Assembly (NCBI GenBank): GCA_035541755.1
Contig: DATKMQ010000016.1
Coordinates: forward strand, 1-39,348
Source: Syntrophorhabdaceae bacterium
Lineage (GTDB): Bacteria; Desulfobacterota; Syntrophorhabdia; Syntrophorhabdales; Syntrophorhabdaceae
Length of the DNA: 39,348 nucleotides
Reading direction: 5' to 3'
The position numbers and the translations under genes are program-made. The notes below the pieces were generated by a model, which saw nothing but the letters and a program-made list of their open reading frames with translations, searched no databases and was not told where the DNA came from. The stretch's first letter is position 1, and each line of letters begins with the position of its first letter. Positions 32,483 to 39,348 of the stretch are shown piece after piece.

Positions 32483-33847
32483 ATGGAGAAAAAAATATTG
32501 TTGAGTGAAAAGGATATGCCAAGGGCATGGTACAATATCCAGGCAGATCTGCCGAGTCCGCTTCCGCCCCCTCTGAATCCGGCGACGGGTGAGCCTATCA
32601 CACCTGACATGCTCACACCCATCTTTCCCATGAACCTTATCGAACAGGAAGTGAGTTCGGAGCGCTGGATTGATATCCCTGAAGAAGTGCTCGAACGGCT
32701 CCTCATGTGGAGACCAACCCCTCTATGCAGGGCCACCGCCCTGGAGAAATTTCTCGGAACGCCCGCCCGGATTTATTACAAGAATGAAGGTACGAGCCCT
32801 CCGGGAAGCCATAAACCAAACACGGCCCTGGCCCAGGCATACTACAACAAAGTCGCGGGTATCAAACGGCTCACCACGGAGACAGGGGCGGGCCAGTGGG
32901 GGAGCGCTCTGGCTTTTGCGTGTAACCAGTTCGGCCTTGAGTTGAAAGTCTACATGGTGCGGGTGAGCTATAATCAGAAACCCTATCGCAGGGTCATGAT
33001 GGAGACCTGGGGCGGCAAGTGTATACCGAGCCCTAGCCCCGAGACAAACGCAGGGAGAAAGTTCCTCGAAGAGAACCCCGACCACCCGGGAAGTCTCGGC
33101 ATCGCGATCAGCGAAGCGATTGAAGACGCCGTTACGTCCAAGAATACAAAGTACTCCCTGGGCAGCGTGTTGAACCATGTCATGATGCACCAGACAGTCA
33201 TAGGCCTCGAGGCGGAAAAACAGCTCGCTGCTGTGGGAGATTACCCGAACATCGTGATCGGCTGTGCCGGCGGCGGGAGCAATTTTGCCGGCGTCTCCTT
33301 TCCATTTGTGCGCGACAAGATTCACGGAAGACAGATCAGGATCATCGCATCAGAGCCGACCTCATGCCCGTCGCTCACTCGCGGTGATTATGTCTACGAT
33401 TTCGGCGACACGGCGCAGACCACCCCTTTATTGCCCATGTACTCCATCGGTCACAATTTTGTACCGGCCCCGATCCACGCAGGGGGACTCAGGTATCACG
33501 GTATGGCGCCGCTCGTAAGCAAGTTGTATACCGACGGTCTTATCGAGGCCAGGGCATATAACCAACTGGAAACGTTCGCTGCGGGCCTCATCTTTGCACG
33601 AACGGAAGGCTTCATTCCCGCGCCCGAGACAAATCATGCCATTGCATGCGCCATTGACGAGGCCAAGCGGGCCAAAGAGGAAGGCAAACAAAAGACCATC
33701 TTGATGAACTTCAGCGGTCATGGAATTATCGACCTTCCGTCCTATGACGCCTTCATGTCGGGAAAACTCCAGGATTACGTGCTGCCGAACGATGAGATAC
33801 AGAGACTGCTGAAAGATCTTGAGAAGTTCCCGAGACCAGGAAAATAG
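32483..33847 (+). CDS. trpB2: tryptophan synthase beta chain, TrpB2 type
   Basis: The PLP enzyme condenses indole with serine to form tryptophan. The 454-residue protein is of the longer TrpB2 class, with an N-terminal extension before [18 protein letters not shown]. The PLP lysine is K111 in GSHKPNTA, and the phosphate loop is [11 protein letters not shown]. TrpB2 proteins usually lack a TrpA partner, and none is adjacent. The ATG follows GGGAGGAA. The trp leader and attenuator just upstream argue that the product really serves tryptophan supply rather than an unrelated PLP reaction. Confidence 0.92.
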
Positions 33848-34167: not shown

Positions 34168-34301
34168 CAAATGCCTGGAATCGCTATGGGACAGGTCCGG
34201 ACCTTATTGTCCGCCATGCGTGGATGGCTTTCTCGCGATAGCGATAACACCACGGTGGTGGCGTCGAGGAATCCTCTGAGAGGGGTGTGATAGAATAAGG
34301 T

Positions 34302-35537
34302 ATGCATGAAGAAATCTGCCAAACGCTCCTCGCCAATGGTGTAGAGATCCTGTACGTGACCAACAGGGCCGTTGAAAATTCAGTGAAACGGCAGGCGACG
34401 GGTGTTCCGTCCTTCCATTGTGAAAGGGTGATCAATGAAGCTGCGGCGGTTGAGTCGGCCCTGGCGGCAAGTCTGGCTGGAAAACGAACAGCCTGTCTTT
34501 CCTCAACGGAAGCGCTCTATGAAGCCGTTTACCCTCTTACGCGTTGCGCTTCAGCAATTGTAGATCGCGGATTTCTCATCATCGCCGTCGAGGAGAATGA
34601 CCAGGAGGTAACACCGTTAGGGCTCTACTCGAAATTGCCCCTCCTTGTCACTGAAGATGTCCATGAATTCGAGGGCGCCGTAGAATACGGCTACGCACTT
34701 TCCGAGCGGTACAAGATACCCGTGATGATTGAGACTGCAGCGCTCACCGGTGGGAGAGGTGAACAACGGGCCACTGACCGGTTTGCAGGGGCCGACCGGA
34801 GACCCGGGCGTAAGAATCAAGAGCCGGAGGCCAAACCCGCGCGTACAATATACAATTTCTCTCAGGCAAGATGCGAACGTTCAAATGAGCTTGACCGAAA
34901 GATAGAAAAGATACGCACGGAGTTTGAGAACTATGAAGGAAATCGAATGATCGTGAGGAATGAGACCGGGCTCATCACGAGTCGGCTCACTTCGCTCGCG
35001 TTTTATGACGAAGATATAAGCCTTCTCAAGATATCAACGATTTTTCCCCTTCCGCTTGGGCTGGTCGCAGACTTCATCAACAAGAAAGAGATGGTTTTTA
35101 TTGCCGAGACCTATCCTGTTATGGAGGCTCAAATACATGAGCGTACAAAGCTATCGAGAGGACCGGCAGGCATGCTTCACAGGGGCCCTAAGCCCGAAGA
35201 GACCACCTATGGGTTCCACGTTGTGCGGGACAAACTCGGTCCTGCATCTTCTATCAATATGGCGCGGGGGATCAAAAGGTCTATGCCCGAAACCAAGGTG
35301 CTTGCCGTTACCTACGAGGACTTTTTCTTTGATTGCGGCATCCCGGCGTTTGTTGATACACTGATTGCCGGCACTCCCTCTGTGATCCTCATTATGTCCA
35401 ACAACAAAGAAGACGCGATCAAGGAGATATTTCGGGGTTTTGGTTTTCACAATTATTTTCATTTGAACGATTTTTCTGAAGTCCAGCGTTTTCGGGACGT
35501 GGAAGAATTGACGGTGCTCTTTTGCAAGGGCATTTGA
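34302..35537 (+). CDS. IorA-like (2-oxoacid:ferredoxin oxidoreductase alpha) protein with degraded TPP site
   Basis: The 411-residue protein follows the layout of indolepyruvate:ferredoxin oxidoreductase alpha. It has a pyrimidine-binding-like domain (about 1-150, with INEAAAVESALAASLAG and the segment IAVEENDQEVTP), a central domain (about 215-285, ISTIFPLPLGLVADF) and a shortened TPP-like domain (300-411). In the last domain TYEDFFFDCGIPAF (337-350) stands where IorA has the GDSTFFHSGI-type TPP motif. The C-terminal 2[4Fe-4S] ferredoxin domain is absent. A TAGAAT box 5 bp upstream and an AAGG next to the ATG make the start uncertain. Confidence 0.65.
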   Translation: MHEEICQTLLANGVEILYVTNRAVENSVKRQATGVPSFHCERVINEAAAVESALAASLAGKRTACLSSTEALYEAVYPLTRCASAIVDRGFLIIAVEENDQEVTPLGLYSKLPLLVTEDVHEFEGAVEYGYALSERYKIPVMIETAALTGGRGEQRATDRFAGADRRPGRKNQEPEAKPARTIYNFSQARCERSNELDRKIEKIRTEFENYEGNRMIVRNETGLITSRLTSLAFYDEDISLLKISTIFPLPLGLVADFINKKEMVFIAETYPVMEAQIHERTKLSRGPAGMLHRGPKPEETTYGFHVVRDKLGPASSINMARGIKRSMPETKVLAVTYEDFFFDCGIPAFVDTLIAGTPSVILIMSNNKEDAIKEIFRGFGFHNYFHLNDFSEVQRFRDVEELTVLFCKGI

Positions 35538-35553
35538 TGATGAGGAGCATGAA

Positions 35554-36594
35554 ATGAAACGCCGTGGATCAGGGATGGGTTTGAGAGCCGGGGCCGTCAA
35601 GCACGACAATTTTAAAATTGCGGCTTACGCGCTTGTGCAGGCAGGTGTGGACATGGTAAGCGCGTGCAGGGGAGGGTGCGCCTTAGGGATTGTCTCTCAG
35701 ATCTTTTCGCTTACGCGCGGTGCGGATAGGAAGATCTGCGCTGAATTATCGATAAACGAGAAATGCGCATTTGAGGCGGCATACGGGGCAGCGTCTCTGG
35801 GCATAAAGGCCGCCTGTGTTCTGGGAAAGGACGGTCTTAACGCGGCTTTTGCGCCCCTCGTCCGCGCCCTGGAGAAACCGATCGATGGGGGCCTCGTGAT
35901 TATGGTTATCGACGATCGGGGTGAGAACAATCGCTGCGGGGAACGAGATATAGGCCTCATGGCTTCACTTTTCGGTATCTCCGTGTACGGCCCTGTGTCG
36001 TCCAAGATGATGAACGAAACGGTGCTCGATGCGGTTACCAGTTCCGTAAAGCAGAGAAAGCCCATCATCATAGAATGCGGGCAAGAATTTTCCTGGACCC
36101 GGGCGAGGCGTTCGTCCGTGCCCCTGCTTTCCGAAATGGGGAATGCGTTTCCTCACGTCCTGTTCTTAAACGAAGGTCCCAGGTATTCTCTTCATGGGGG
36201 TAGCGAAGAGGGCTGCGACGTCCCCTTGATGAGCGAACCCGTGGCCTTTGCGGCGGGCCTCTTCGACGTGTTGAGCCAGGACAGATGCCCTCTCCAGATC
36301 GTGGTTTCGATGGAGGACTTGACGTTCTTTGGGTACTGCCTCGCCACGCTCACCGACGCCGTGCGCAAACATAAGAAATTTACCCTTGTTGTGGCCGATG
36401 GCGGGGCCTATCCGCTCGCAGTTGAGAGCGCTTTGGCAGCCCTGGGGATTTCTTTCGTAAGGGTTGTAGATTCGGATGACATTGGCGCCACGACCAAAGC
36501 AGTGCGAGAGGCATTCGAATACCTGCATGAGGACGGATCAAAGCCGGCGATTATCGTGAGAAAGTGTGATCCCGCCATTCTCGTAGAACCGTAG
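35554..36594 (+). CDS. second IorA-like protein, also with degraded TPP site
   Basis: The 346-residue protein is a paralogue of its upstream neighbour, 16 bp away, with a GAGGAG ribosome binding site. The N-terminal half keeps IorA-like features: INEKCAFEAAYGAASLG, KDGLNAAFAPLV (IorA: K-x-GLN-x-AA-x-PL) and MVIDDRGENNRCGERD. The C-terminal half has SMEDLTFFG (252-260) where GDSTFF is expected and VADGGAY (280-286) in place of the Asn-containing second half of the TPP motif. No ferredoxin cysteines follow. It may be a non-catalytic subunit or a repurposed enzyme; the two genes probably act together. Confidence 0.62.
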   Translation: MKRRGSGMGLRAGAVKHDNFKIAAYALVQAGVDMVSACRGGCALGIVSQIFSLTRGADRKICAELSINEKCAFEAAYGAASLGIKAACVLGKDGLNAAFAPLVRALEKPIDGGLVIMVIDDRGENNRCGERDIGLMASLFGISVYGPVSSKMMNETVLDAVTSSVKQRKPIIIECGQEFSWTRARRSSVPLLSEMGNAFPHVLFLNEGPRYSLHGGSEEGCDVPLMSEPVAFAAGLFDVLSQDRCPLQIVVSMEDLTFFGYCLATLTDAVRKHKKFTLVVADGGAYPLAVESALAALGISFVRVVDSDDIGATTKAVREAFEYLHEDGSKPAIIVRKCDPAILVEP

Positions 36595-36697: not shown

Positions 36698-37693
36698 ATG
36701 GACAAAAAACTCTCTATAGTCATTGTCACCAAAGATACAAAGGCGCTCGTCCAGGGTCTTTTGAGCTCTATCAAAAGGGATACCTCCCTGGCCCCGTCAA
36801 TAGATCAGGTCATTGTTATGGACAATGGGTCTATAGACGGGACGGTTGATGCCATCACGCGGCAGTATCCCGACGTTATCTGCGTGAGAAACGAACAGAA
36901 CAGGGGTTTTGCTGCGGCTGTGAACAAAGGCTACTCGTTAAGTAAGGGGGAGTACATTATCTTTCTCAACTCCGACACAATCCTTATCGAGGGCGAACTG
37001 ACGAAGATGATTGATTTTATGGACGAGAATCCCGATGTGGCCATATGCGGCCCGCAGCTCGTGTACGAGGACATGAAGCCCCAGCGTTCCTTCGCGGCCC
37101 TCCCGTCTCTTGCGAGAGAGATCCTGCCCTTTAAGAGGTCCGGCAGGCGTACAGGTCCGGGTCGCCACCCTGAGACCGGTGCCAAACAGTCGACTCACCC
37201 GTCTTCATTACCTGTGTCCAAGCCTCGGGCAATCGCGGGCGTTCCCGTTGACTCGCTCATCGGTGCAGCGATACTCGTGCGAGCCGAGGCGCTTGTCACG
37301 CTCAACGGTTTTGATGAGAGGTTTTTCTTCTTTCTTGAAGAGACCGACCTCTGCGTTAGAGCGCGGAGGGCAGGGTACGGGGTCGTCTTCCTGCCCGAAG
37401 CTAAAGTCATCCACCTGCAGGGAAAGACGGTTCGAAGGCATTGGATTCCCGGAAGAATCGAGTACAATATTTCGCTGTATAAGTTTATCAGGAAACACCA
37501 CAGGCCCGCATACTACACTCTGTTTACTGCCATAAGGTTCACCAAAGCCCTCATCTTTGTGGTAATCTTTTCTTTATTCTTTCCGTTTCTCTTCCACGGC
37601 GGAGTAAGGGCAAAATACATCTATTATACAAGGCTCCTTACGTGGCATCTCAAGGGTCGTCCGGATGGGGCGGGCCTGGCTCATCCGAAATAA
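36698..37693 (+). CDS. family 2 glycosyltransferase (rhamnosyltransferase-like)
   Basis: The 331-residue protein has a GT-A fold: an N-terminal strand LSIVIVTKDTKALVQGLL, the nucleotide-sugar region VMDNGSIDGTVDAI, NRGFAAAVNKGYSLS, the metal motif NSDT (about 90-93) and the acceptor/catalytic region GFDERFFFFLEETDLCVRAR. A hydrophobic C-terminal segment (about 282-305) may attach it to the inner membrane. COG1216-like enzymes add rhamnose or related sugars to polysaccharides. No other polysaccharide genes are visible here, so the acceptor is unknown. Confidence 0.9.
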   Translation: MDKKLSIVIVTKDTKALVQGLLSSIKRDTSLAPSIDQVIVMDNGSIDGTVDAITRQYPDVICVRNEQNRGFAAAVNKGYSLSKGEYIIFLNSDTILIEGELTKMIDFMDENPDVAICGPQLVYEDMKPQRSFAALPSLAREILPFKRSGRRTGPGRHPETGAKQSTHPSSLPVSKPRAIAGVPVDSLIGAAILVRAEALVTLNGFDERFFFFLEETDLCVRARRAGYGVVFLPEAKVIHLQGKTVRRHWIPGRIEYNISLYKFIRKHHRPAYYTLFTAIRFTKALIFVVIFSLFFPFLFHGGVRAKYIYYTRLLTWHLKGRPDGAGLAHPK

Positions 37694-38751: not shown

Positions 38752-38817
38752 CCATGAAAGAGTCGAATGCCGTGTGTATGTCACATGATACCCAAAAACC
38801 CTGAAGGTGTAGACATC

Positions 38818-39348
38818 GTGCAAAAGACCCTAGTCAAGAAATACACTATAGGAGTTATCGCGGTATTTATTTTGCTCCTCTGCATCAATGAGCTCTTTGC
38901 CGACCCCGACATTTGGACGGAGAGGGCCGATTTCGGTGGAACAGCACGCGGCAGCGCCGTGGGTTTCTCGATAGGAAGCAGAGGTTACGTAGGAACCGGA
39001 TGGGACAATTCAGACAGACGAGATTTCTGGGAGTATGATCCCGCCACAGATACATGGACGCAGAAGGCCGATTTCGGGGGGGCGGCCCGGGTTCTTGCCG
39101 TGGGCTTCTCCATCGGGACCAAAGGTTATGTGGGTACGGGATTCGATAGCGCATATTTATTTTATAACGACTTCTGGGAGTATGATCCCGTCGCAAATAC
39201 ATGGACGCAGAAGGCCGATTTCGGGGGGGCGGCCCGATATGCCGCAGCGGGATTTTCAATCGGGACAAAAGGCTACATAGGGACGGGATGGGACGGAGTA
39301 GCGGACTACGCAGATTTCTGGGAGTATGATCCCGCCACAGATACATGG
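38818..39348 (+). CDS. exported kelch-repeat protein, N-terminal part (runs off window)
   Basis: The 177 codons present have no stop. The GTG at 38818 follows AAGGTG by eight bases. An in-frame ATG at 38785 without a ribosome binding site is an alternative. A signal peptide (IGVIAVFILLLCINELFA) precedes repeats of about 49-52 residues with the pattern ADFGG-AR, GFSIG-KGYVGTG, DFWEYDP, TWTQK, typical of kelch/galactose-oxidase-like propellers. Three repeats are visible. A beta-propeller in the periplasm or on the surface is expected; the ligand is unknown. Confidence 0.85.
   Translation, partial: MQKTLVKKYTIGVIAVFILLLCINELFADPDIWTERADFGGTARGSAVGFSIGSRGYVGTGWDNSDRRDFWEYDPATDTWTQKADFGGAARVLAVGFSIGTKGYVGTGFDSAYLFYNDFWEYDPVANTWTQKADFGGAARYAAAGFSIGTKGYIGTGWDGVADYADFWEYDPATDTW
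39024..39348 (+). repeat. tandem DNA repeats within the kelch gene
   Basis: The segment starting GATTTCTGGGAGTATGATCC occurs at about 39024, 39172 and 39317, spaced by about 145-150 bp. It is followed each time by near-identical DNA (ACATGGACGCAGAAGGCCGA, then a run of G). The identity at DNA level suggests recent duplication or conversion of the repeats. Confidence 0.8.

Follow-up and report, generated by a model that had tools for sequence, protein, structure and literature searches.

Organisation of the locus

The window analysed here is a 39,348-nucleotide stretch of DNA from a Syntrophorhabdaceae genome, a MAG-like assembly of 180 contigs. Two open reading frames, P1 and P2, lie on the same strand 16 bp apart, and partial matches to the alpha-subunit profile of indolepyruvate:ferredoxin oxidoreductase (IOR_alpha, TIGR03336) give both an IorA ancestry, as the original prediction had proposed. 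They stand between the genes for TrpB2 and a small four-cysteine protein on one side and a GT2 glycosyltransferase gene on the other (Table 1). The trpB2 product belongs to the TrpB2 (trpB_rel) family, scoring 679.6 bits against a curated cut-off of 518.85. In the small protein the cysteines, read by eye, are spaced C-x12-C-x8-C-x5-C. The gap ahead of P2 contains GAGGAG, which resembles a ribosome-binding site. Kelch-like repeats (WTQKADFGGAARxxAVGFSIGTKGYVGTG) are found at the contig end, at positions 38767–39348.

Table 1. Genes, and sites of genes lost, around P1 and P2 (positions in the window)
Feature	Position	Strand	Evidence and remarks
trpB2, standalone TrpB-like PLP enzyme	32483..33847	+	NF009057 6e-226, TIGR01415 1.3e-204 (profile search); opens the conserved operon
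Small four-Cys protein, operon gene 2, conserved core ~78 aa	33895..34167	+	Cluster c5, 19 loci, between trpB2 and the aminotransferase
Site of class I aminotransferase (~365 aa) in relatives	34168..34301	+	Deleted in the window, from synteny and tblastn
P1, IorA-like companion subunit, predicted TPP-impaired, 411 aa	34302..35537	+	Order-only orthologues, fold match, motif alignment
16-bp gap, site of iorB (gamma subunit, ~190 aa) in relatives	35538..35553	+	iorB deleted in the window
P2, shrunken orthologue of the operon IorA, predicted catalytically dead, 346 aa	35554..36594	+	Clade, synteny, alignment
GT2 glycosyltransferase, closes the conserved gene order	36698..37693	+	PF00535 9.5e-26; cluster c3, 24 loci

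Comparison of P1 and P2 with IorA

Both proteins match TIGR03336 over part of its length and score ~85 bits, far below the cut-off of 650.9. P1 aligns with profile positions 46–299 (86.7 bits, 1.1e-24) and P2, in its best stretch, with positions 11–163 of 595 (81.0 bits, 6.1e-23); for comparison, the P1 and the operon IorA of locus L042 score 152.6 and 532 bits, and the canonical IorA of the window genome 686.4 bits. Similarity to IorA covers the Pyr domain in both proteins, together with domain II in P1 and with parts of the PP domain in P2. At 410 (P1) and 346 (P2) residues the two are much shorter than IorA (~600), and neither has the C-terminal 2[4Fe-4S] ferredoxin domain, the absence of which had been noted in the original prediction and which is present in nearly all of the relatives' operon IorAs. 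Profile searches of Pfam and NCBIfam gave nothing above cut-off for either protein and a search of the PDB by sequence gave no match; on these grounds, membership of a characterised family other than IorA, which would have spoken against the original prediction, is rejected.

Degraded TPP motifs had been predicted for both proteins. This holds for P2, in which MED replaces GDS, DGG replaces DNG with loss of the Asn, and the CxGCPHR/GDIGCYTLG pocket segment is eroded, and it holds in part for P1. Alignment to full IorAs places the sequence IMSNN of the window P1 on IMDNG of IorA and YED on GDS, so that both the Asp and the Asn position remain. P1 has lost the TTAMTG loop and the entire stretch CxGCPHR...GDIGCYTLG, and the Gly beside the Asp is now Glu. 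The finding that would speak against degradation, intact TPP/Mg ligands in shifted positions, was not clearly obtained: P1 retains the Asp and Asn positions, but the rest of its pocket has gone. The Pyr-domain Glu is kept in both proteins (INEAAA and INEKCA, respectively). Among 28 sequences of the P1 family, this Glu is present in 27 and the Asn position in 18, and six show a weak similarity to TPP_enzyme_C (2.7e-4 at best). Strict conservation of the Asn and Asp, as seen in the operon IorAs, does not extend to the P1 family. P1 keeps the Pyr-half Glu and usually the PP-half Asp and Asn, and its TPP binding is therefore probably impaired rather than abolished.

Structural models, for which alignments of relatives were used, reach a mean pLDDT of 82.5 for P1, a confident fold, and of 73.8 for P2, a moderate one. 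The OFOR alpha fold, comprising a Pyr domain and a TK-C-like domain II, is recognised in P1, and its Pyr domain in P2. P1 consists of an OFOR alpha-like Pyr domain and domain II (residues 1–298) followed by a shrunken PP-like domain (residues 299–411). Its first part matches the alpha chain of Methanosarcina acetivorans PFOR (9bt4_A; Z 22.6, rmsd 3.2 Å over 263 residues), and the Pyr domain of P2 matches those of TPP enzymes with Z about 20 (19.9 to 9u8q_D). P1 differs from the OFOR alpha subunits in its added PP-like domain, and also in that its operon encodes an IorA with complete Pyr and PP halves of its own.

The operon in related genomes

The position of the pair after trpB2 had been taken as a hint of aromatic 2-oxoacid or indole metabolism, and the gene neighbourhoods of relatives bear this out. 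In ~28 loci the order is trpB2, four-Cys protein, class I aminotransferase, P1, IorB, IorA and GT2, and the operon from trpB2 to iorA is nearly universal in the Syntrophorhabdales. The operon IorA of these relatives has GDSTF in all cases, and CxGCPH and the ferredoxin domain in nearly all. Wherever the neighbourhood of P1 is complete an operon-type IorA is present, the exception being the window, which has P2 only; the window genome (G000) contains no operon-type IorA besides P2. In two genomes (G011 and G024) the IorA is not linked to P1 but lies elsewhere in the genome (64–65%), two others (G008 and G027) have neither P1 nor an operon-type IorA, and in G029 a fragment of an operon-type IorA is found with no P1 detected. 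At the loci and in the genomes examined for it, P1 thus co-occurs with a catalytic partner, as expected of a non-catalytic IOR subunit, the window genome excepted. A survey for recurrence of the P1/P2 pair with trpB2 or the four-Cys protein, proposed with the original prediction, gave a different picture: it is P1 that recurs, together with intact IorA and IorB, and the pair is seen in one genome only. We conclude that the P1/P2 pair is a lineage-specific end state and not a recurrent system.

In three genomes (L043:8283-12616, and similarly L046 and L052) there is an insertion between IorB and the operon IorA; its genes, named by eye, are for a ferredoxin, Vor/Por-type alpha and beta subunits, a 4Fe-4S protein and a FAD-type oxidoreductase.

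MAGs of other Deltaproteobacteria (L109, L110, L111 and L117) contain an operon that likewise opens with trpB2, the four-Cys protein and the aminotransferase, in this order, and encodes an IOR. In contrast to the Syntrophorhabdales operon, an IorA of ~700 residues with an extra Fe-S motif stands where P1 would be, and there is no IorA downstream of IorB. This arrangement is probably the ancestral form of the operon. One genome with an operon of this type (G050) gave no match to TrpA or TrpC.

Distribution and phylogeny of P1

Orthologues of P1, with 36–58% identity, are found in 33 of the 36 other genomes of the family, in one of them split in two frames, and in four more genomes of the order outside the family. 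At L070:3515-4844 (G005), P1 appears as two overlapping frames, through either a frameshift or a sequencing error. Named records of the orthologues come from Syntrophorhabdus, from Syntrophorhabdaceae and Syntrophorhabdales MAGs, or are labelled Deltaproteobacteria or Syntrophus. Among 395 genomes sampled from the phylum, full-length matches to P1 are confined to its own order; the other matches end near P1 residue 285, almost all of them in open frames of ~500 residues or longer, and the named records of related IorAs of this long-frame kind mostly have GDSTF.

In the phylogenetic tree P2 falls inside the operon-IorA clade (support 100), on a branch of 2.64 compared with 0.05–0.4 for other members, and P1 forms a monophyletic sister lineage, in which the branch of the window P1 is 0.75 and that of its sister 0.18. 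The branch leading to the P1 lineage is long (1.9), so that its point of attachment is uncertain; its position in the operon suggests descent from the ~700-residue IorA whose place it occupies. The original prediction had treated P1 and P2 as two adjacent diverged copies, but they belong to two old, separate clades, and a recent tandem duplication is rejected. P1 is an ancient paralogue of IorA whose PP half is broken; the full-length IorA, a separate protein, is the catalytic subunit. Apparently the P1 proteins make up an undescribed, order-restricted family of TPP-impaired IorA paralogues.

Gene loss and divergence in the window lineage

Between the four-Cys protein and GT2 the window holds just P1 and P2, the aminotransferase and IorB having gone, and tblastn of the intergenic stretches found no remnant of the aminotransferase or iorB. 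No relocated copy of either gene was found elsewhere in the genome, where the best matches are distant paralogues (37% and 35% at most). A canonical IorA/IorB pair is present separately, on another contig.

P2 is ~40% identical to its orthologue. Its losses comprise ~170 residues in the central part and 21 behind the DNG motif, together with the CxGCPH motif, the ferredoxin domain and the TPP ligands. By alignment, synteny and clade, P2 is the remnant of the operon IorA, shrunk in frame. An assembly artefact of an ordinary operon is unlikely, given the ~40% identity of P2, its in-frame losses, the single contig and the normal flanks.

P1 has also changed. Of 46 positions that show no variation among the other 29 orthologues, 18 are altered in the window P1 (0–4 when any other orthologue is treated likewise), whereas the window trpB2 is altered at 1 of 210 invariant positions. 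Branch ratios of dN between the window and its sister, derived from pairwise dN, are ~2.2 for P1 and ~5.5 for P2, compared with 1.4 for trpB2 and 1.2 for GT2; saturation of synonymous sites between the two members of the genus precludes a clean dN/dS. Constraint on P1 thus dropped along with the loss of the catalytic IorA and of IorB, and this is evidence for a normal function of P1 alongside these two subunits.

Tryptophan supply

Profile searches of the window genome found no TrpA and no TrpC, and for TrpD one modest match; TrpB2 is its sole TrpB, being the only trpB-family match of size. Standalone TrpB2 has been described previously (PMC1854888), and the window enzyme is a clear member of this group (NF009057, TIGR01415), distinguished by heading an operon of aminotransferase/IOR type, as the sole TrpB in a genome in which no TrpA was found. 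TrpA, TrpC and TrpD all fall below cut-off in 26 of the 43 other genomes of the order, several of them 98–100% complete, and 21 of these 26 carry P1.

With so many genomes of the order lacking TrpA, TrpC and TrpD, the operon is best read as a route of tryptophan salvage from indole or indoleacetate. Genomes that have these enzymes keep the operon too, however, and salvage is therefore not its sole possible use. The chemistry of IOR, of aminotransferases and of TrpB2 is well established, and the gene content suggests that the operon supplies tryptophan or runs in reverse as a catabolic route. In the collection of papers searched, none links indolepyruvate with Syntrophorhabdus, or with both TrpB2 and an oxidoreductase; IOR, an aminotransferase, an operon and tryptophan synthase are mentioned together in one paper, on Thermococcus aminotransferases.

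Interpretation of P1 and P2

The explanation that we favour, with a probability of roughly two in three, is that in the relatives P1 is a non-catalytic IOR subunit encoded in a tryptophan-supplying operon, and that in the window lineage the IOR of this locus has been lost, with P1 and P2 left as translated pseudoenzymes. In the relatives, an arylpyruvate:ferredoxin oxidoreductase of the IorA/IorB type would include P1 as a subunit without catalytic function, and its IorA would carry the TPP, CoA and ferredoxin chemistry that interconverts indolepyruvate and indoleacetyl-CoA. The aminotransferase would connect indolepyruvate with tryptophan, TrpB2 would form tryptophan from indole and serine, and the three activities would jointly feed tryptophan to organisms that mostly lack the anthranilate route. 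The four-Cys protein is a possible metal-binding partner, and P1 could also act independently of IorAB.

In the window lineage, deletion of the aminotransferase and iorB and the in-frame shrinkage of iorA to P2 would have removed oxidoreductase activity from the locus. P1 and P2 would persist as IorA-fold pseudoenzymes, probably paired as P1 was with IorA, and a P1/P2 heteromer is plausible. Their fate may be slow decay, or retention for a structural or regulatory role beside TrpB2. It seems doubtful to us that the P1 proteins are obligate non-catalytic subunits of a tryptophan-salvage oxidoreductase and that P1 and P2 of the window form a non-catalytic heteromer that selection maintains in a new role next to the genome's only TrpB.

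It is unlikely that P1 and P2 of the window are decaying, functionless pseudogenes of the lost oxidoreductase that are open by chance. Such decay would fit the disappearance of the aminotransferase and iorB, the changes at invariant positions of P1, the very long branch of P2 and a state known from one genome. Both frames are open, however, with normal coding-type codon-position composition (GC3 of P2 0.64). In a simulation that treats all excess divergence as neutral, the probability of an open frame by chance is 7e-4 for P2 at 0.4 neutral substitutions per site (one case in 1,500 simulations) and ~0.03 for P1. P2 carries ~7 internal indels, every one of them in frame and none out of frame, and the ribosome-binding-site-like sequence ahead of it has been kept. 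Open frames together with these in-frame indels are improbable under neutrality, and both genes are thus probably still translated.

Recruitment of the pair to a new, non-oxidoreductase function, for example in ligand sensing or as a scaffold or regulator of TrpB2, would explain why it was kept while all of the redox parts were shed. It accords with the selective keeping beside trpB2 of two proteins whose folds appear intact in the models, with the restriction of P2 indels to those in frame, and with the P1-like architecture that P2 has reached independently, down to the change of Gly to Glu before the Asp of GDS. We nevertheless consider it quite unlikely: there is no second genome with the pair and hence no conservation of the new state, P1 is losing the invariant residues of its own family, and no domain has been gained. 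Least probable is that P1 is still an enzyme, such as a decarboxylase needing no ferredoxin domain, with its Glu-Asp-Asn set binding TPP in a new geometry; the frequent retention of Glu and Asn and the weak TPP_enzyme_C matches in its family would favour this, but P1 lacks the section of the pocket with CxGCPHR and GDIGCYTLG, Glu stands in place of the Gly before the Asp, and the family does not strictly keep the Asn and Asp that operon IorAs keep.

Implications

For the P1 family the label 'IorA' would be misleading. With P1 as a non-catalytic companion of IorA, our preferred reading, these genomes provide a natural series that passes from a single large IorA in other Deltaproteobacteria, through an IorA accompanied by a dead P1 in the Syntrophorhabdales, to two dead paralogues with no oxidoreductase in the window. 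This series makes the role of a catalytically dead 2-oxoacid oxidoreductase subunit directly testable. It also leads to a hypothesis on the source of tryptophan in syntrophic anaerobes that lack TrpA, TrpC and TrpD, which may obtain it through reductive carboxylation of indoleacetyl-CoA followed by transamination, and through the capture of indole by TrpB2.
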